From Bernardetiaceae bacterium (GTDB taxonomy: Bacteria; Bacteroidota; Bacteroidia; Cytophagales; Thermoflexibacteraceae), in contig JANWWZ010000017.1 in assembly GCA_025057115.1 (NCBI GenBank), positions 1 to 56,210 on the forward strand: a DNA stretch of 56,210 nucleotides, in the 5' to 3' direction. Position 1 is the stretch's first letter. Each line of letters opens with the position of its first letter. A model generated the notes under the pieces. That model was not told the origin of the DNA and made no database searches. It saw nothing but the letters and a program-made list of their open reading frames with translations. The position numbers were made by a program, and so were the translations under genes. Positions 1,471 to 41,589 of this stretch are shown here, piece by piece.

Positions 1471-2259
1471 TTATAGCTTAAATCCAAGACCTACTTGAAT
1501 GCTTAGTCCACGTGTGCGAATATCTTGATTACCAAGGCTTAGAGGATATCCGATGCTGGGGCTATTGCTGCCGATGAAATTAGCCGATTGACCATAAGCG
1601 TTGTTGATATCAGTAAAGCCATGGCGGTAACGTGCATCAAGGAACAAGGTAGCCCACTTGAGGTCGAAATCAACGCCGGCGCCTACAATCATGCCAATAT
1701 CAATAGACTTAAATTGGTTAGTGGCATCAACGCGGTACTTGGTAGGAGCGCCGAAACGATATCCTTCTACGTTGTTGGTAGCATGCACGTTGAAGTCGAA
1801 GGAAGGACCTACAAAAACTCTAGGCTCATACACTGAAAGTACGGGCAGCTTGAAGTAGGACAGCAAATTAGCTTGGATATTGCTAAGGCGATAATCATTT
1901 AAATTGCCACCCGCTATTGAATTGGCTGTACCAGGTTGTGCATGAACAAAACCTGCAGTAGGAGAGAACCGTGCTGCACCACTTTGTGAAAAGCCTGCTT
2001 CCAGTGAAACACCTACCCAGCTATTGAAGTTGTACATAGCAAAGGCGGTGGCTTGCGCGCCTGCCAGTGAGGTAGTGGACTTGGTAGTTCCGGACACTGA
2101 AAAATCGTTTACATTCACTCCTGTGCGCACGCCCACGATGAGGCTGCTCTGCTTGCCCGGCGTAGCCGCGTCAGGTGGATTTTGTGCGTTAGCGCCAAAT
2201 GCAAAAGCGCCCACGGCGAGAGTTGCCAACAGAGTAGCTTTTTTCAAATCGTTTTTCAT
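1471..2259 (-). CDS. outer-membrane beta-barrel protein (PorT-like)
   Basis: Predicted outer-membrane barrel of 262 residues. I place the start at 2257-2259 because MKNDLKKATLLATLAVG followed by AFAFGANA-Q is a clear signal peptide, whereas the upstream in-frame Met would bury it. The mature part has alternating hydrophobic strands with Gly/Phe/Tyr (for example VGVRTGVNVNDF, SWVGVSLEAGFSQSG, VFVGPSFDFNV, GAGVDFDLKWATLFLDARY) and ends in GLSIQVGLGFKL, a typical barrel end. It matches the general PorT / outer-membrane-barrel family of Bacteroidota, which are structural or of unknown role. A TAnnTTTG promoter element lies 43 nt upstream and a terminator follows, so it is probably monocistronic. 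Confidence 0.85.
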   Translation of the reverse strand: MKNDLKKATLLATLAVGAFAFGANAQNPPDAATPGKQSSLIVGVRTGVNVNDFSVSGTTKSTTSLAGAQATAFAMYNFNSWVGVSLEAGFSQSGAARFSPTAGFVHAQPGTANSIAGGNLNDYRLSNIQANLLSYFKLPVLSVYEPRVFVGPSFDFNVHATNNVEGYRFGAPTKYRVDATNQFKSIDIGMIVGAGVDFDLKWATLFLDARYRHGFTDINNAYGQSANFIGSNSPSIGYPLSLGNQDIRTRGLSIQVGLGFKL

Positions 2260-2301
2260 AGATTGTAAGTGTTTTCTTAAGTTTATTAAATATATTTCGC
2301 A

Positions 2302-2309
2302 CAAAACTA
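2302..2309 (-). promoter_or_regulatory. Bacteroidota -7 element (TAGTTTTG)
   Basis: TAGTTTTG on the minus strand fits the TAnnTTTG consensus of the Bacteroidota housekeeping sigma factor. It lies 43 nt before the barrel start at 2259, giving a leader of about 35 nt. The -33 TTG is poor here. Confidence 0.5.
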
Positions 2310-2433
2310 AGCATCAGTATGCTAATTTGAAAGTCTAAAGCCTACTTTCGCTTAATTTTCTGCCCGTAGTCGTAGGCAAATCTATAAAATAATTTCAAAT
2401 CGCAAGGTTTTTACCCAAAAACTTTTAATTAAG

Positions 2434-4479
2434 ATGGAGTTCCAACTACATTCAGAGTATCAGCCTGCCGGTGACCAGCCACAAGCAATTGAGAAACTCG
2501 TAGCAGGTGTACAAGCGGGAGAGCGTGCCCAAATCCTCTTAGGGGTTACAGGCTCAGGGAAAACTTTTACTATCGCCAATGTAATTGCCCGCCTTAAGCG
2601 TCCTACGCTGGTGCTGAGCCATAACAAAACCCTAGCAGCTCAACTTTACGGCGAACTTAAGCAGTTCTTTCCCAATAATGCAGTGGAATATTTTATTTCC
2701 TACTACGACTACTACCAACCCGAAGCATACCTCCCTACTACCAACACCTATATAGAAAAAGACCTTTCCATTAATAAGCAAATTGAAAGATTGCGGCTAA
2801 GTGCTGTCTCTGCACTCATATCAGGTAGGCGAGACGTCATCGTAGTGGCTTCAGTTTCTTGCATCTACGGCATCGGCAATCCCCACGAGTTTAAAGAACA
2901 CATCCTTCAACTCACTAAAGGGCAAGTAATATCGCGCAATAAACTTTTATCTCAGCTGGTGCATATTCTTTACAACCGAACAGAAGTTTATGTTGAAAGA
3001 GGGAGTTTTCGCGTCAGGGGTGATACAGTAGATGTTTTTCCTCCTTACGTCGATTTTGCTTACCGAATCATTTTTTGGGGTGATGAAATAGAAAACATTC
3101 AGCGCATCGATCCATCCATTGGCATGAAAATATCTGAAGAACATAAAATTTCTATTTTTCCTGCTAATTTATTTGTCGTAGGAAAAGATCTACTCCAAAC
3201 CGCTATTAAAGAAATCCAAGATGACTTAGTGGCGCAAATCAAATTGTTTGAGTCGGAAGGCAAGTACATAGAAGCTCAGCGAATCAAAGAACGCACTGAG
3301 TCTGATTTGGAAATGATTCGCGAACTGGGCTACTGCAATGGAATAGAAAACTACTCTCGCTATTTTGACCGCCGACCCCCTGGAGCAGCGCCTTTTTGCT
3401 TGTTGGATTATTTTCCAAAGGATTACCTAATGATTATCGACGAAAGCCATGTTACAGTGCCACAAATTAGAGCCATGTGGGGCGGAGACCGCTCGCGGAA
3501 AATTACCTTGGTGGACTACGGTTTTCGCTTACCTTCCGCTTTGGACAATCGCCCTCTTACCTTTAACGAGTTCGAAGAAAAAATTAACCAAGTCATTTTC
3601 GTAAGTGCCACGCCAGGAGAGTATGAACTCACTCTTTGCGAAGGCGTTGTAGTAGAGCAAATTATACGTCCTACTGGGCTGATAGACCCCGAAATTAGCG
3701 TGCGACCATGCAAAAATCAGATAGAAGATCTCATAGAAGAAATTGATGACCACATAAAACGCGGTGGAAGAGTACTAGTAACTACGCTCACCAAGCGCAT
3801 GGCTGAAGAGCTTACTAAGTATCTTGCTCGCTTAGGGATCAAAACCCAATACATTCACTCAGAAATACAAGCCCTCAAGCGCGTAGAAATTTTGCGGCAA
3901 CTAAGGCTAGGAATGTTTGATGTACTAGTAGGCGTAAATCTCTTGCGCGAAGGGCTCGACTTACCTGAGGTTTCTCTAGTAGCCATCATGGATGCCGACA
4001 AAGAAGGTTTTTTGCGCAGCCAACGCTCTCTCATTCAAACCATTGGACGGGCAGCTCGCAACGTGGAAGGCAAGGTAATCATGTATGCCGATACTATTAC
4101 CCAGTCCATGCGAGAGGCTATCGAGGAAACTAATCGCCGCCGCAAGATTCAACAAGCCTACAACGAAGCCCATGGAATTACTCCAAAAACTATAAGAAAG
4201 TCCAAAGAAGCTATTATGAAACAAACCGCTGTAGCAGATGCTAGAAAGCCTCACGCGGAATTGAAATTCTACCAAGATCCAGAGGATATATTTGAAAGCC
4301 TCATTGCTGAACCTGTCATTGCTGCTATGGATGCCAAGCAGTTAGATAAACTCATTCAACAAACGCAGAAAAATATGGAAAAAGCAGCTAAAGAACTGGA
4401 CTTCATTCAAGCGGCGCGCTTGCGAGACGAGCTAATAGCCCTTAAAAAACGCAGAGAAGAGTTATTAGGTATCGGTTAA
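2434..4479 (+). CDS. uvrB: UvrABC system protein B
   Basis: UvrB, the damage-verifying helicase-like subunit of nucleotide excision repair, acting in the cytosol with UvrA and UvrC. The 681 residues are a normal length. Visible in order: Walker A GVTGSGKT near residue 38-45; the beta-hairpin YYDYYQPEAYLP near 92-103; the Walker B region DESH (LMIIDESHVTVPQI); helicase motif VGVNLLREGLDLPEVS; arginine-finger motif QTIGRAARN; and a C-terminal UVR domain (KNMEKAAKELDFIQAARLRDEL) that binds UvrC. Monocistronic by spacing; flanked by a divergent barrel gene and a convergent OmpA gene. Confidence 0.98.
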   Translation: MEFQLHSEYQPAGDQPQAIEKLVAGVQAGERAQILLGVTGSGKTFTIANVIARLKRPTLVLSHNKTLAAQLYGELKQFFPNNAVEYFISYYDYYQPEAYLPTTNTYIEKDLSINKQIERLRLSAVSALISGRRDVIVVASVSCIYGIGNPHEFKEHILQLTKGQVISRNKLLSQLVHILYNRTEVYVERGSFRVRGDTVDVFPPYVDFAYRIIFWGDEIENIQRIDPSIGMKISEEHKISIFPANLFVVGKDLLQTAIKEIQDDLVAQIKLFESEGKYIEAQRIKERTESDLEMIRELGYCNGIENYSRYFDRRPPGAAPFCLLDYFPKDYLMIIDESHVTVPQIRAMWGGDRSRKITLVDYGFRLPSALDNRPLTFNEFEEKINQVIFVSATPGEYELTLCEGVVVEQIIRPTGLIDPEISVRPCKNQIEDLIEEIDDHIKRGGRVLVTTLTKRMAEELTKYLARLGIKTQYIHSEIQALKRVEILRQLRLGMFDVLVGVNLLREGLDLPEVSLVAIMDADKEGFLRSQRSLIQTIGRAARNVEGKVIMYADTITQSMREAIEETNRRRKIQQAYNEAHGITPKTIRKSKEAIMKQTAVADARKPHAELKFYQDPEDIFESLIAEPVIAAMDAKQLDKLIQQTQKNMEKAAKELDFIQAARLRDELIALKKRREELLGIG

Positions 4480-4629
4480 TTTTGCTTGGCACGGATCTGA
4501 TTGAGATAGGTAGTTTGGCTAAGGAAAAGCGTTAACCCTATAAAGATTTTGTTTTTCTCTGTTCTCAGATTTACTGCACTCAAGAAGTTGAACCTGTTCA
4601 AGTGAAGAGGTAATTTGCTTTGGGAAAAT

Positions 4630-4665
4630 CAAAAAGCCTTGAGGGGTAAAATCCTCAAGGCTTAC
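4630..4665 (-). terminator. intrinsic terminator between uvrB and the OmpA gene
   Basis: AAGCCTTGAGG (4634-4644) pairs perfectly with CCTCAAGGCTT (4653-4663). On the minus strand the stem is followed by TTTTTGATTTT, a good terminator for the OmpA/PD40 gene. On the plus strand it is followed by ACTTTTAG, so it may also serve uvrB. Confidence 0.82.
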
Positions 4666-4686
4666 TTTTAGCTACAACAAAGCCAC

Positions 4687-6621
4687 TTAGTTGCAACGCT
4701 GTCCGTCAGAGCCTTTTTGTATGATTTTGAACTCTACGCGGCGGTTCAAAGCCATGTTAGCATCGTTAGGTTTGCCATTTACTTCGTTAGGCACCAGTGG
4801 CGAGGTTTCACCAAAGCCCTTGGTTTGGATGCGGTTTTCAGCAATGCCCTTGCTTACTAAGTATTGTTTTGCCGCTGCTACGCGCCGCTCAGAGAGACCT
4901 TGGTTATAGCTATCGCTACCGCGATAGTCGGTATGACCCTCGATGCTAATGCTTACAAATGGATAGTCTTGCATGAACTTAACTACCTTGTTAAGCTCTT
5001 CGATGGATTTAGGCAAGAGAGAAGCAGCGAGTTCTTTGGGCGTCATGTTGCGCGGACGCGCTGTAGCAAAGTTGATATTATCAAATGCGATCTTGGTCAG
5101 GTCGAATAGGAAGATTTCGCGATAAAGGGTATCGCCAGGCTGCTTTTTGGTCAAGTCCAATGTAATAGTAGCTGGAATGTACTGGTCGGCTGTACCTTCA
5201 GCGCAGTAGGTAGTTCCTGGAACGAGAATAGCTTCATATTTTCCAGGACCAATTTTCTTTTGGTCTTTTACTTTGCCTTTAGATACGTCATTAGGCTTGA
5301 TACCTACTACTCCTTGTTCTATGGGTTCGCGAGTGAGACCATCTATTACTGCTACAATTGCCTTAACGCCTACGCGCTTCATTGCAAAGTTTGCGCAGCA
5401 GCAGAAATTCATGCCGTTGGTATAGTCAAGCTCCTGTTCTATAGGCTCGTAGTCTTCTAATTCTACGGTGATTTTGTATTTGTTGCCTTCGGTCAAAACG
5501 GTTTTGATTTGACCATTTTGGCTTTTCATCACGTAGCTAAGAGAAGTACGAGTTTGGTTATCTACCTTTACAGTGGCCTCCAGAGGTTCACCTGTGGCAG
5601 CGTCAGTAACTTTGCCCACAAACTGACAAGTGCGCTTCGGCTTCATGCCATCAGGCACTGGCGTGGTGAACAGTTCATATGAGGCACCCATATAAGCGGT
5701 AAAGTACGCCAACACGTGGGGATCGTCGTTAGGGGCTACAGAAACCAACAAGTCAGGCTGATAGGAGTACATGGTATTTTTTACGAAAGGTGCAATATCT
5801 GCTGGAACGGGTTCGCTCCACGTATTGCCTGGTTGTAATTCTGAATAGTAAAGGTCAAAATCTTGGGAGTTTTTAGGGCTTCCTCCGCGGCGAGTAGTGG
5901 AGAAGAATACCGATTGGTTATCAGGCATGATGCGCAAATGCTTTTCACAACCGGCATTCAAAGGAGCAGGCAACTCTTCTGGGGTGCCCCATGACCCGTC
6001 CAAGTTGCGCTTAGAAACCATCAATTTATAGCATTGCGTATTGTTTTTAGTAGTTTCCCCTTTGCGAACAAAATACAGGCGCTGACCATCGGAAGAGATA
6101 GAGGGGAATCCTTCGTAATCCCCTGTATTTACTGCTCCAGGTACGGGCACTGGGTCGCCCCATTTGCCATCGGGACCGCGCTGCGACATGTAGATATCTT
6201 CGTTGCCACCGCCTATTTTAGCAAAAAAGTAGAGCGTATTGCCATCATAAGAAAGCGAAGGACCTCCTATAATATCTCCCTCTCCTGCTTTGCTGTTAAT
6301 AGACTCAATAGGCTGGGGCTCAAGCCAAAATCCCGTTACCGTGTCGCGTTTTGCTTCCCAGAGGCGGTAGTACTGCCATGAATTTCCCCCGCGATTAGAT
6401 TGGTACACTAATGTGCGACCATCAGGACTAATAGCAGGCGCATATTCATCATGGAGCAGCGTGTTAATGATGTTGGGCATTCGTTCGCGCTTAGGCTGAA
6501 CATCTGCCTTGTAAATCCTGTCGGTTATCAGATTGGTGATTTGGCGCTGGGCATGGACAGCACTCCCAGCAAACAAACCAAGCGCAATCGCCAGACCTAC
6601 ATAGTGCGCGTTTTGTTTCAT
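4687..6621 (-). CDS. OmpA-family protein with PD40 propeller and CarboxypepD-reg-like domains
   Basis: Exported 644-residue protein that should sit in the periplasm and bind peptidoglycan. The signal peptide MKQNAHYVGLAIALGLFAGS ends at AVHA-Q. Residues about 50-320 hold repeated PD40 (WD40-like) blades such as YAPAISPDGRTLVYQSNRGG, GGPSLSYDGNTLYFFAK and GFPSISSDGQRLYFVR. Residues about 335-400 form a carboxypeptidase regulatory-like beta sandwich (GKVTDAATGEPLEATVKV), with a second similar unit after it. The C-terminal 110 residues are an OmpA domain (SISIEGHTDYRGSDSYNQ, LSERRVAAAKQYL). The architecture is that of the PorE-like OmpA proteins linked to type IX secretion or gliding, but no TPR segment is seen, so that role is inference. 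Confidence 0.9.
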   Translation of the reverse strand: MKQNAHYVGLAIALGLFAGSAVHAQRQITNLITDRIYKADVQPKRERMPNIINTLLHDEYAPAISPDGRTLVYQSNRGGNSWQYYRLWEAKRDTVTGFWLEPQPIESINSKAGEGDIIGGPSLSYDGNTLYFFAKIGGGNEDIYMSQRGPDGKWGDPVPVPGAVNTGDYEGFPSISSDGQRLYFVRKGETTKNNTQCYKLMVSKRNLDGSWGTPEELPAPLNAGCEKHLRIMPDNQSVFFSTTRRGGSPKNSQDFDLYYSELQPGNTWSEPVPADIAPFVKNTMYSYQPDLLVSVAPNDDPHVLAYFTAYMGASYELFTTPVPDGMKPKRTCQFVGKVTDAATGEPLEATVKVDNQTRTSLSYVMKSQNGQIKTVLTEGNKYKITVELEDYEPIEQELDYTNGMNFCCCANFAMKRVGVKAIVAVIDGLTREPIEQGVVGIKPNDVSKGKVKDQKKIGPGKYEAILVPGTTYCAEGTADQYIPATITLDLTKKQPGDTLYREIFLFDLTKIAFDNINFATARPRNMTPKELAASLLPKSIEELNKVVKFMQDYPFVSISIEGHTDYRGSDSYNQGLSERRVAAAKQYLVSKGIAENRIQTKGFGETSPLVPNEVNGKPNDANMALNRRVEFKIIQKGSDGQRCN

Positions 6622-6891
6622 AGGTTTGGTAAGATTAGGTTAATTCCACGATATTTGAGCATGGATGCAAAATAAATCAGTTTTCTTTTCTGTTCCCTTT
6701 TTTCTGCGTACAATTTTATGAAATAGGCTTGGGAATTCCAAAAAACTTTGCTTCTCCTCCCTTAAAGTTTATCTCCCAAACCCACTCAGTTTCCCCTATT
6801 CTTGCCTGAGGGCTGGTAAATAAGCCTGCTCAAGTTCATTTGCTTTGAATATTCAACTAGCGTAACTTGTCGCACTAACTCACCAGTAGAT

Positions 6892-8649
6892 ATGGAACCT
6901 CGACGTGCTTTTGACCTTCTTTACTACCAGCGCCAACACTATCCTAAGCCCGATGCCATAGCAGGCAAGCAAAATGGGCAGTGGATAAAGTACAGCACTG
7001 AAGATGTGATTCATATTTCCAGTTGGATTAGCTTAGGGCTGCTCAAGCTGGGCATTGGTAAGGATGACAAAATAGCTATTATCTCCCCCAATCGCCCAGA
7101 GTGGAATTTTGTTGACTTTGCCATACAGCAAATCGGGGCGGTCAGCGTGCCGATGTACCCCACCATTACCATAGAGGACTACCGCTATATTCTTACCGAT
7201 GCAGAAGTAGAGCTAATATTTGTAGCCGACCAAGCCCTTTACCAGAAAGTCAAAAAAGCTACCGAAGGCATGAAGATCCCAATTTACTCTTTTGACCCCT
7301 TGCCTAAGGTACCCCACTGGAAAGAAATAGAGGCTCTTGGCAAAGACGAAGAATTCAGCCGACTAGAGCTCTACATGGAGTCTGTAAAAGAAACTGACCT
7401 GCTCACTTTAATCTACACTTCTGGCACCACAGGGCGACCCAAAGGCGTAATGCTATCTCACAAAAACGTAGTGAGCAATACTCTTTCTGTTTGCAAAAAT
7501 TTCACCCATATTCCTAATGGCACTTCAAGGGCGCTGAGTTTTTTGCCCCTTTGCCATATCTACGAAAGAACGGGGTCGTATGTGTATATCTACAAAGGCG
7601 TTTCAATTTACTATGCCGAAAGTTTAGACACTATCGCCGCTAATTTGCAGGAAGTAAAACCTGACACGTTCAACACAGTGCCACGACTGCTGGAAAAAGT
7701 GTACGACCGCATTGTTTCCAAAGGGTTAGAGCTTTCGGGTGTTAAGCGAAAACTATTTTTCTGGGCTTTGGACTTAGCCTTAAAATACGATCCTGCCAAA
7801 GACATGGGAGTTACTTATAATTTGCAACTCAACCTTGCTCGCAAGTTAGTTTTTAGTAAATGGAAAGAGGCGTTAGGGGGCAACATTAAGTCCATTCAGT
7901 CAGGGGCAGCAGCGCTTCAACCTCGCTTGACGCGCGTATTTTGGGCAGCGGGTATTCCCATCTGTGAAGGCTACGGGCTCACTGAAACTTCGCCTGTGAT
8001 TTCTTCCACCCCCGCCATTGCTTCCGAAGTGCGAATTGGTTGCGTGGGAAAAATTATTGACGGAGTAGAAGTAAAAATTGCCGAAGATGGCGAAATACTT
8101 TGCAGAGGTGATAATGTAATGATGGGCTACTACAAACAGCCTCAACTCACTGCCCAAGTGCTCAAAGAGGGTTGGTTCCACACGGGAGATGTAGGGCAAC
8201 TGATAGAGGGCCAATACCTCAAAATCACTGACCGCAAAAAGGAAATGTTTAAAACTTCGGGGGGTAAATACATCGCTCCTCAGCCAATGGAAAACAAGTT
8301 TAAAGAATCGCGTTTGATTGAGCAAATCATGGTGGTGGGAGAAGGAAGAAATTTCCCTTCAGCCCTTATCGTACCTTCGTTTGACAATCTCCGCCAGTGG
8401 TGCAAAGCAATGGAAATCCCTTACACTACCGATGAAGAAATGATTAAGCACCCCCGCGTAATAGCTCGTTTTGAGCAAGAAGTAGAAGAATACAACGACC
8501 ATTTTGGTCAATGGGAAAAAATCAAAAAGTTTAGATTGCTTTCCAAACCTTGGAGCATTGATTCTGGCGAGCTAACACCTACCTTAAAACTAAAACGAAA
8601 AGTTATTGAGCAAAAATACGCTTCCTTCATCGAGGAAATGTATGCTTGA
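6892..8649 (+). CDS. long-chain acyl-CoA synthetase (AMP-forming)
   Basis: An ANL-superfamily enzyme of 585 residues that activates a fatty acid with ATP and couples it to CoA, probably at the inner membrane face. Key motifs: the P-loop-like TLIYTSGTTGRPKGVMLSH near residue 172-190, the adenylation motif GYGLTETSPV near 359, the ATP-binding TGDV and the hinge DRKKEMFKTSGGKYIAPQ near 448-465. The length and the N-terminal form (YYQRQHYPKPDAIAGKQNG) fit the FadD15/LC-FACS group. It stands alone between a divergent OmpA gene and a convergent glycosidase operon. Chain-length preference cannot be read. Confidence 0.93.
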   Translation: MEPRRAFDLLYYQRQHYPKPDAIAGKQNGQWIKYSTEDVIHISSWISLGLLKLGIGKDDKIAIISPNRPEWNFVDFAIQQIGAVSVPMYPTITIEDYRYILTDAEVELIFVADQALYQKVKKATEGMKIPIYSFDPLPKVPHWKEIEALGKDEEFSRLELYMESVKETDLLTLIYTSGTTGRPKGVMLSHKNVVSNTLSVCKNFTHIPNGTSRALSFLPLCHIYERTGSYVYIYKGVSIYYAESLDTIAANLQEVKPDTFNTVPRLLEKVYDRIVSKGLELSGVKRKLFFWALDLALKYDPAKDMGVTYNLQLNLARKLVFSKWKEALGGNIKSIQSGAAALQPRLTRVFWAAGIPICEGYGLTETSPVISSTPAIASEVRIGCVGKIIDGVEVKIAEDGEILCRGDNVMMGYYKQPQLTAQVLKEGWFHTGDVGQLIEGQYLKITDRKKEMFKTSGGKYIAPQPMENKFKESRLIEQIMVVGEGRNFPSALIVPSFDNLRQWCKAMEIPYTTDEEMIKHPRVIARFEQEVEEYNDHFGQWEKIKKFRLLSKPWSIDSGELTPTLKLKRKVIEQKYASFIEEMYA

Positions 8650-40609: not shown

Positions 40610-40639
40610 CAAATATACAAATAATAGTTGTTTTACTAA
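40610..40639 (-). promoter_or_regulatory. hppD promoter with operator-like element
   Basis: Minus-strand TATATTTG (40610-40617) is an exact -7 element. TTA stands at 40637-40639, the -33 place, with 19-nt spacing. The first copy of the 17-bp repeat (40623-40639) fills the spacer, where a bound protein would block RNA polymerase. Confidence 0.65.
40623..40639 (+). repeat. 17-bp direct repeat, copy 1 (hppD side)
   Basis: AATAGTTGTTTTACTAA, identical to 40823-40839 and exactly 200 bp from it. The core TAGT-N6-ACTA is a short dyad, as expected for a dimeric regulator's site. Confidence 0.85.
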
Positions 40640-40747
40640 ATATTATTATGCAAATAATTTGCCTTGCAGTGATAGTTTTTGTTAGAAATCAGTATACTTA
40701 TAGTACAACCTCGCACCACTTTATTAATTTGACGATGGAAAGACAAG

Positions 40748-40778
40748 AGCTGCCCTTGCTAAGGGCGGCTTTTATTTT
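40748..40778 (+). terminator. terminator-like hairpin upstream of phhA
   Basis: AGCTGCCCTT (40748-40757) pairs with AAGGGCGGCT (40761-40770), one G-U pair, 3-nt loop, then TTTATTTTC. It points toward phhA but no confirmed gene precedes it on the plus strand, so it may be a leader attenuator or the end of a small RNA. It lies inside a possible 17-codon frame at 40735-40788. Confidence 0.65.
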
Positions 40779-40822
40779 CTTGAGATAAATTAGGAAATGT
40801 GAGACTAATTAGTTAACTTAGC

Positions 40823-40839
40823 AATAGTTGTTTTACTAA
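40823..40839 (+). repeat. 17-bp direct repeat, copy 2 (phhA side)
   Basis: Second copy of AATAGTTGTTTTACTAA, ending 9 nt before the phhA start codon. The palindrome ACTAATTAGT lies 10 nt upstream at 40804-40813, sharing the TTAGT/ACTAA halves. Confidence 0.85.
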
Positions 40840-40848
40840 CTTATAGCC

Positions 40849-41589
40849 ATGATGCAAAAACAAGATTATAGCCGCTATACTGACGAAGATCGCTTAGTTT
40901 GGCAATTGCTCTTTGATCGGCAAATGGCGCAGCTTCCCGGGCTTGCCTGTAGCGCTTACATGGAAGGAGTTAGGAAAATAGGCTTTCGCCGCGACCGCAT
41001 TCCCAACTTTGAGGAAGTAAACGCAGTGTTGGCTGCTTATACTGGATGGCAGTTAGTAGTTGTTCCTGGATTGATTGATAACAAACCATTTTTTGAACTT
41101 TTGTTGAATAAAAAGTTTCCAGCTACTACATGGCTTCGCAAACTTTCTGAGCTGGACTACTTGGAAGAACCCGATATGTTCCACGATGTTTTTGGGCATG
41201 TACCGCTGCTGACTAATCAAGATTTTTGCAATTTTCTCAGTGGTTTAAGCAACATTGCATTAGAATACATCGACAACGAATGGGCAATAGAACTCATCTC
41301 AAGGCTTTATTGGTACACTGTGGAATTTGGGCTCATCAACGACCCTGTAGAAGGATTGCGCATTTACGGTGCAGGTATTCTCTCTTCAAGTGGCGAATCA
41401 GTTTACAGCTTAAAAAGCGATAAACCTTTGCGCGTTCCCTTCGATGTAGAACACATTATCGAAACCCCTTACATCAAGGATAAATACCAAGAAAAGTACT
41501 TTGTCATAGATTCATATCGCCAACTTTATGACTCCTTGCCTGAAGTGGCACGGGTAGTTAGAAAGCACGTAGCCCTGAGCGCAGCTTAG
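40849..41589 (+). CDS. phhA: phenylalanine 4-monooxygenase (monomeric type)
   Basis: Phenylalanine hydroxylase of 246 residues, catalytic domain only, as in other bacteria; it uses iron, oxygen and a tetrahydropterin to make tyrosine. Iron ligands are visible: the two His of EPDMFHDVFGHVPLL and the Glu of YWYTVEFGLI. Pterin and substrate contacts fall in GLRIYGAGILSSSGES. Two ATGs lie in tandem at 40849 and 40852. With divergent hppD it forms a phenylalanine-to-homogentisate module. The queD-like pterin gene at 49476 is unlikely to be its cofactor source but could be considered. Confidence 0.96.
   Translation: MMQKQDYSRYTDEDRLVWQLLFDRQMAQLPGLACSAYMEGVRKIGFRRDRIPNFEEVNAVLAAYTGWQLVVVPGLIDNKPFFELLLNKKFPATTWLRKLSELDYLEEPDMFHDVFGHVPLLTNQDFCNFLSGLSNIALEYIDNEWAIELISRLYWYTVEFGLINDPVEGLRIYGAGILSSSGESVYSLKSDKPLRVPFDVEHIIETPYIKDKYQEKYFVIDSYRQLYDSLPEVARVVRKHVALSAA

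Follow-up and report, generated by a model that had tools for sequence, protein, structure and literature searches.

Genes for phenylalanine and tyrosine breakdown, including phhA, are controlled in Proteobacteria by TyrR/PhhR, whose box is TGTAAA-N6-TTTACA. Transcription factors of Cytophagales are, to our knowledge, little characterized. In Pseudomonas putida, the IclR-family protein HmgR represses hmgABC, and homogentisate acts as its anti-repressor (work cited in the accessible part of PMC5343134). The same part of that paper describes HmgS, a MarR-family protein, as the predicted regulator of hmgAB in Alteromonadales/Pseudoalteromonadales (PMC5343134). Here, we analyzed a 56,210-nucleotide stretch of DNA (the window) from a Bernardetiaceae bacterium of the Cytophagales, in which a repeated sequence lies between hppD and phhA. 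The window genome (G000) was compared with three congeners (G001, G002, and G003), within a family set of 13 genomes (G000 to G012).

An exact search confirmed the direct repeat reported by an earlier, sequence-only reading of this DNA. The 17-mer AATAGTTGTTTTACTAA occurs at 40623-40639 and again at 40823-40839, 200 bp from start to start, and the second copy does end 9 nt ahead of the phhA start, an ATG at 40849. The 3.0-Mb window genome (86 contigs) contains no further exact copy, and a whole-genome search allowing up to two mismatches returned three matches: both exact copies and one with two mismatches. Allowing up to three mismatches, the window itself held three matches against 0.32 expected, a number reached in none of 100 shuffles. 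This is the sole exactly repeated 17-mer in the window besides an array at about positions 1 to 150. That array consists of GTACCATTCAGGAATTGAAAT direct repeats with a 65-66-bp spacing and resembles the end of a CRISPR array, apparently cut by the window edge.

Sites in relatives place the conserved unit in a 22-bp inverted repeat with the consensus AATAGTTGTTATACTAAnTATT. Over 31 sites, paired positions were complementary in 57.5% of cases at centre 11.5 of 22, compared with 40.5% at centre 9.5; the next-best symmetry centre, 16, reached 47.8% with six pairs only. The dyad TAGT-N6-ACTA that had been read in each copy is present but off-centre, as the conserved symmetry lies 2 bp further right and the operator measures 22 bp. 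A nearby palindrome, ACTAATTAGT (40804-40813), is likewise there in the window but, by eye, is not kept in the three congeners. At locus L045 (4936-4957), the phhA operator is identical to the hppD operator of the window.

Table. Features of the hppD-phhA region of the window (R2 is the model of sites from outside the family set, described in the text)
Feature	Coordinates	Strand	Basis
hppD, 4-hydroxyphenylpyruvate dioxygenase, 377 aa	39447..40580	-	open reading frame; Pfam PF00903, PF13669, PF14696
hppD -7 promoter element TATATTTG, Bacteroidota-type, 5 bp downstream of operator	40610..40617	-	perfect TAnnTTTG match
candidate hppD operator AATAGTTGTTTTACTAAATATT, 22 bp; lies within an inverted repeat with 10-nt arms, AATAATAGTT-N8-AAATATTATT, reaching 40620-40647	40623..40644	+	repeat search; kept in G001, G003; R2 E=0.011
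ATTAATTTGAC ahead of hairpin	40723..40733	+	identical in five aligned leaders
terminator-like hairpin in phhA leader, between both operators	40745..40773	+	covarying stem in five aligned leaders
candidate phhA operator, 22-bp AATAGTTGTTTTACTAACTTAT with degenerate right half; its end lies 4 nt ahead of start codon	40823..40844	+	repeat search; kept in G001, G002, G003; R2 (without family sites) E=0.126
phhA, phenylalanine-4-hydroxylase (biopterin-dependent), 246 aa	40849..41589	+	open reading frame; Pfam PF00351 E=3.6e-45

The nearest named relatives of the window phhA come from a 'Bernardetiaceae bacterium' and an 'uncultured Cytophagales bacterium', both metagenome-assembled genomes. The divergent hppD-phhA pair is retained with both sites in G001 and G003. 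In G002, no match to hppD was obtained and a different gene stands upstream of phhA, yet the phhA site is present. In this congener (L005, L162, and L284), phhA, hmgA, and fahA are kept, as are the operators of phhA and hmgA. The DNA between the sites is strongly unlike that of the congeners except for a leader element; the sites themselves vary little. The distance between the two, where both are retained, is 200, 331, and 329 bp (three genomes), and because it varies in this way, we regard the DNA looping suggested earlier as unsupported.

A third site lies about 30 bp upstream of hmgA (homogentisate dioxygenase), on another contig of the window genome. A pattern derived solely from the hppD and phhA sites first revealed it, as one of 13 matches in G000, and all four genomes of the genus (G000 to G003) have it. 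The G000 gene was identified by protein query and by Pfam HgmA_N; the same query detected the enzyme in 12 of 13 genomes of the family set, and Pfam HgmA_C matched only 2 of the 13. The gene for fumarylacetoacetase, fahA, sits on a separate contig in G000, and no site was found upstream of it in G000 to G003, G005, or G009. We therefore rejected fahA as a target in the window's own genome. G007 has a 22.5-bit site 89 bp upstream of fahA, and no fahA was found in G004. The expectation that the repeat would recur before other genes of the tyrosine pathway was thus borne out in G000 for homogentisate dioxygenase but not for fumarylacetoacetase. In these genomes, several genes of a single pathway are thus preceded by a conserved palindrome, which is the arrangement by which we would recognize the operator of a shared factor.

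To cover more distant genomes, a matrix of 15 family sites was used to score 137 regions lying upstream of phhA, hppD, or hmgA. Among 685 shuffled regions, the highest score was 14.4 bits, which served as the cut-off; 4 of 1233 tiles of real DNA scored at least as high, some of them possibly true sites. Beyond the family set, scores above 14.4 bits were reached by sites at phhA in Flexithrix, three Arcicella loci, and three metagenome-assembled genomes (L037, L044, and L045), at hmgA in Larkinella and one Cytophagales genome (L069), and at hppD in G054. This family-only matrix gave the hmgA sites of Flectobacillus and a Cellulophaga-named strain 13.6 and 9.0 bits, under the cut-off, although the first is a nearly perfect palindrome and the second a perfect one. 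Most other regions among the 137 showed no site.

Genome-wide scans with short patterns (two mismatches) proved unspecific, since a reversed control matched equally or more often in most genomes. Their list nonetheless held the phhA and hmgA sites of G004. These scans were superseded by 22-position sequence models. The first model, R1, comprised 29 of the 31 sites (a duplicate, L045, and a weak site, L037, were omitted). Because R1 contains the very sites being tested, we built a second model, R2, from 11 sites belonging to none of the 13 family genomes; every family site was excluded, as were L045 and L037. Resemblance to the family motif had guided the choice of these 11, but the choice was confined to DNA upstream of pathway genes or marR. 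Each scan scored the best 150 of about 1600-8400 first-look candidates per genome (about 2500 in G000 and G001), so that the absence of further matches is not absolute.

Among the best 150 candidates, R1 recovered only hppD, phhA, and hmgA sites at E ≤ 0.12 in G000 to G003, the next matches having E ≥ 0.5. The top matches in G009 were at hmgA and hppD; a third (E=0.313) fell inside the phhA coding match and was not counted as a site. With R2 and a limit of E ≤ 1, the best 150 of about 2500 candidates yielded exactly three matches in G000, at hppD (0.011), hmgA (0.057), and phhA (0.126), and exactly three in G001, at the same three genes. Every match in these two genomes was therefore a pathway site, a specificity that was weaker elsewhere in the family. 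Among the best 150 candidates of each genome at the same limit, G002 gave phhA, then one unrelated match, then hmgA; G003 gave phhA, hppD, and hmgA with two unrelated matches; G004, covered without its hppD upstream region, gave hmgA alone, with phhA not recovered; G005 had phhA at the top of eight, the other seven unrelated; and G009 gave hppD and hmgA. The four matches in G007 included one pathway site, at fahA, and three unrelated ones, and its phhA, hppD, and hmgA sites were missed. G006, G008, G010, G011, and G012 gave 1, 1, 6, 1, and 1 matches among their best 150 candidates, none of these matches being at phhA, hppD, or hmgA. Neither many copies at unrelated places nor a loss of the repeat in relatives, the outcomes against which the sequence-only reading had set its proposal, was encountered. 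The proposal itself, an operator of one regulator for hppD and phhA, is supported by conservation, by the hmgA site, and by the genome searches.

A candidate for this regulator is suggested by gene neighborhoods. A MarR gene is clustered with some or all of hmgA, phhA, hppD, and fahA in Flectobacillus, the Cellulophaga-named strain, Arcicella, and Larkinella; it follows hmgA-hppD in Flexithrix and precedes fahA in two metagenome-assembled genomes. The Pfam MarR/MarR_2 assignment was checked for three of the clustered proteins. The window genome encodes a 54%-identical, Pfam-confirmed homologue of the clustered MarR at G000:C85:71996-72397, unlinked to hppD, phhA, and hmgA. This protein matched the MarR domain PF01047 with 50.9 bits (cut-off, 24.6), and its best sequence match among solved structures was 3oop (named Lin2960 protein; E=3.5e-17), followed by 8xt8 MarR (9.5e-14). 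The motif KDxPTxTR, in a region that we take to be the recognition helix, is common to 19 of 21 aligned MarR proteins; the exceptions are the weak homologues of G006 and G010.

Site and protein occur together. All eight family genomes with sites have a close MarR homologue (E ≤ 2.7e-36), and all five without a site at phhA, hppD, or hmgA have only weak homologues (best, 3.4e-21), giving a Fisher p of 0.0008 over the 13 genomes with relatedness ignored. A scan of named genomes took in 50 further records (L036 to L085, of 80 loci), in which sites of at least 14.4 bits were found in 7 of 9 records with a close MarR homologue versus 1 of 41 without (p=2.8e-6), phhA upstream alone having been examined in most of the 41. 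L036 was counted only via hppD and hmgA sites known from G009; without it, the first fraction is 6 of 9 (p=3.5e-5). Both sets of counts overstate independence because the genomes are related, and they overlap because several records appear to be the same genomes (L036/G009, L038/G007, and others).

The candidate's own gene is less uniform in this respect. At the marR locus of G000, G001, and G002, no site is present (the highest score in the surrounding 12 kb is 6.3 bits), and none was found at the marR gene of G003, G004, G005, G007, or G009; the marR of G021 has a 17.2-bit site. Autoregulatory sites at MarR-family genes are common, not universal. G068 (L045), whose phhA site scores 28.7 bits, has no MarR closer than 31% identity; perhaps this genome bin is incomplete or mixed. 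No site was found at the gene of that weak homologue or of the one in G006 (33%).

The motif also appears away from the tyrosine genes. Six of the 50 genomes have a MarR homologue of 41-44% identity beside an FAD/NAD(P) oxidoreductase (assigned by Pfam in one of the six and by eye in the others), with a ferredoxin-like gene near the pair in five of six loci, again by eye. In all six, the best match to the family-only matrix in the 10-11-kb locus (13.0-25.1 bits) was located either at the start of marR or between marR and the oxidoreductase gene, and in five of the six the site lies at most 8 bp upstream of the marR start or overlaps it. None of these loci had entered a matrix. The result links the motif with the MarR protein without relying on the tyrosine genes. 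The operator was recorded at L269 to L274 (about 4.8-5.7 kb), MarR homologue/oxidoreductase loci of Algoriphagus and other Cytophagales genomes.

Promoters of the Bacteroidota type carry a -33 TTG as the second element beside the -7 box. The -7 sequence of the main promoters of a flavobacterium is given as TAnnTTTG in the accessible part of PMC9723704. At hppD, a perfect TAnnTTTG lies 5 bp from the operator in G000, 6 bp in G001 and G003, and 1 bp in G009. By position, the window's hppD copy does fill the promoter spacer, as had been claimed, but no -33 TTG was found 17-23 bp from the -7 box. In the genus, a -7-like box with a single mismatch coincides with the beginning of the hmgA operator, and the phhA 22-mers stop 4-13 nt short of the start codon, with no -7 box found near them. 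In L039, L044, and L045, the operator spans the -33 TTG and the spacer of a promoter pair with an 18-20-bp spacer, and in L069, L083, L086, and L090, it takes up the spacer and runs into the -7-like box. Seven loci (L010, L015, L031, L037, L094, L138, and L153) have -7-like boxes 12-22 bp upstream of the site, which places the site within the first-transcribed region. Because the sites mostly overlap or adjoin promoter cores or precede the phhA start codon, the regulator would most likely repress by blocking RNA polymerase.

The leader element between the two operators includes a hairpin. We aligned the leaders of G000 to G003 and G005, five related sequences chosen for looking alike; of the 45 cells of the aligned stem, 97.8% pair, and seven of nine pairs changed on both sides, with shuffled and slid controls lower. 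By eye, the hairpin was not seen in G004, G007, or G009. It may attenuate phhA or end a small RNA. No Rfam family reached its gathering score at the four phhA loci of the genus, and a sub-threshold MicF match (31.6 bits versus a gathering score of 79, E=0.29) was taken as chance. A leader peptide with Phe/Tyr codons before the hairpin could be read by eye in the congeners; the window does not retain it, and it was rejected. Tentatively, and with somewhat more doubt than confidence, we suggest that one MarR subfamily and its 22-bp operator may serve two unrelated regulons in different families of the Cytophagales, one for Phe/Tyr (phhA, hppD, hmgA, at times fahA) and one an autoregulated oxidoreductase-ferredoxin regulon, with the hairpin as a second layer of control on phhA in the window's lineage.

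From the sites, their conservation, the specificity of the genome searches, and the site-MarR co-occurrence, all observed directly, we infer that the 22-bp repeats are very probably the operators of a MarR-family repressor coordinating the Phe/Tyr-breakdown genes; binding by this MarR, its dimeric state, repression, and the inducer belong to the inferred part. A dimeric MarR-family factor, encoded elsewhere in G000, would bind the 22-bp inverted repeats. Since the same operator also precedes hmgA, one regulator would coordinate phhA (Phe to Tyr), hppD (4-hydroxyphenylpyruvate to homogentisate), and hmgA (ring cleavage). The bound protein would block RNA polymerase at the promoter core or just before the phhA start codon, and an aromatic acid of the pathway would most likely release it.

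The sign of this control is the point most exposed to doubt. The hppD site stands just upstream of a -7 box, and the search for a -33 TTG there found none; activators that remodel weak promoters also use such a position, so the protein could be an activator, or activator and repressor both, instead of a repressor. We consider this unlikely, given that the genus hmgA sites overlap a -7-like box, which fits occlusion better, and that the closeness of the phhA 22-mers to the start codon fits occlusion or a road-block better. The identity of the binder is a separate matter. It was assigned by genomic association, with co-occurrence computed for MarR; in the window's genus, the MarR gene is not linked to its presumed targets, and L045/G068 has a site without a close MarR. 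A shared Phe/Tyr regulator of another kind (e.g., Lrp/AsnC, IclR, or TetR type) could account for these points, but site and MarR gene co-occur and cluster together in several genera, and the motif marks the MarR homologue's own locus even where the neighbors differ, which makes another binder improbable.

Both of these alternatives keep the repeats as DNA sites. It has little to recommend it that the repeats act instead in mRNA, as an element of the phhA 5' leader: the phhA copy adjoins the start codon of a gene whose leader has a covarying hairpin, but relative to the gene the copies are found on both strands, several of them overlie -7 boxes or are situated upstream of them, they are inverted repeats, and the covarying hairpin excludes the repeat. 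We give practically no credence to a chance repeat in AT-rich DNA; the intergenic stretch has 32% G+C against 44% in the window, but chance is refuted by conservation across genera, and the shuffles and the specificity of the genome searches also speak against it. The candidate MarR-family repressor with its 22-bp operators provides a testable regulator, operator, and target list for an entire catabolic pathway. Its operator sequence stays constant while the neighbors change between families, making it a case for studying regulon rewiring.

Searches of the openly licensed literature yielded no paper on this regulon; the kind of switch is an ordinary, known one, and, as far as those searches reach, the regulon appears to be undescribed. 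Compared by eye with the TyrR/PhhR box, the consensus AATAGTTGTTATACTAATTATT does not match. The candidate's closest NCBIfam models are the MarR-family equivalogs HpaR, SlyA, and BilQ, and it scores far below all of their cut-offs (e.g., 51.7 versus 121.2 bits for HpaR). As far as HmgR is described in the accessible part of PMC5343134, the likeness lies in repression of homogentisate-pathway genes and release by an intermediate, release being only proposed here, and the difference lies in a protein family unrelated to that of the MarR candidate. HmgS, on the same partial description (PMC5343134), is likewise a MarR-family protein assigned to the homogentisate branch of tyrosine degradation by comparative genomics, but it is gammaproteobacterial and was assigned to hmgAB in 3 genomes, whereas the regulon described here comprises phhA, hppD, hmgA, and sometimes fahA in Cytophagales.
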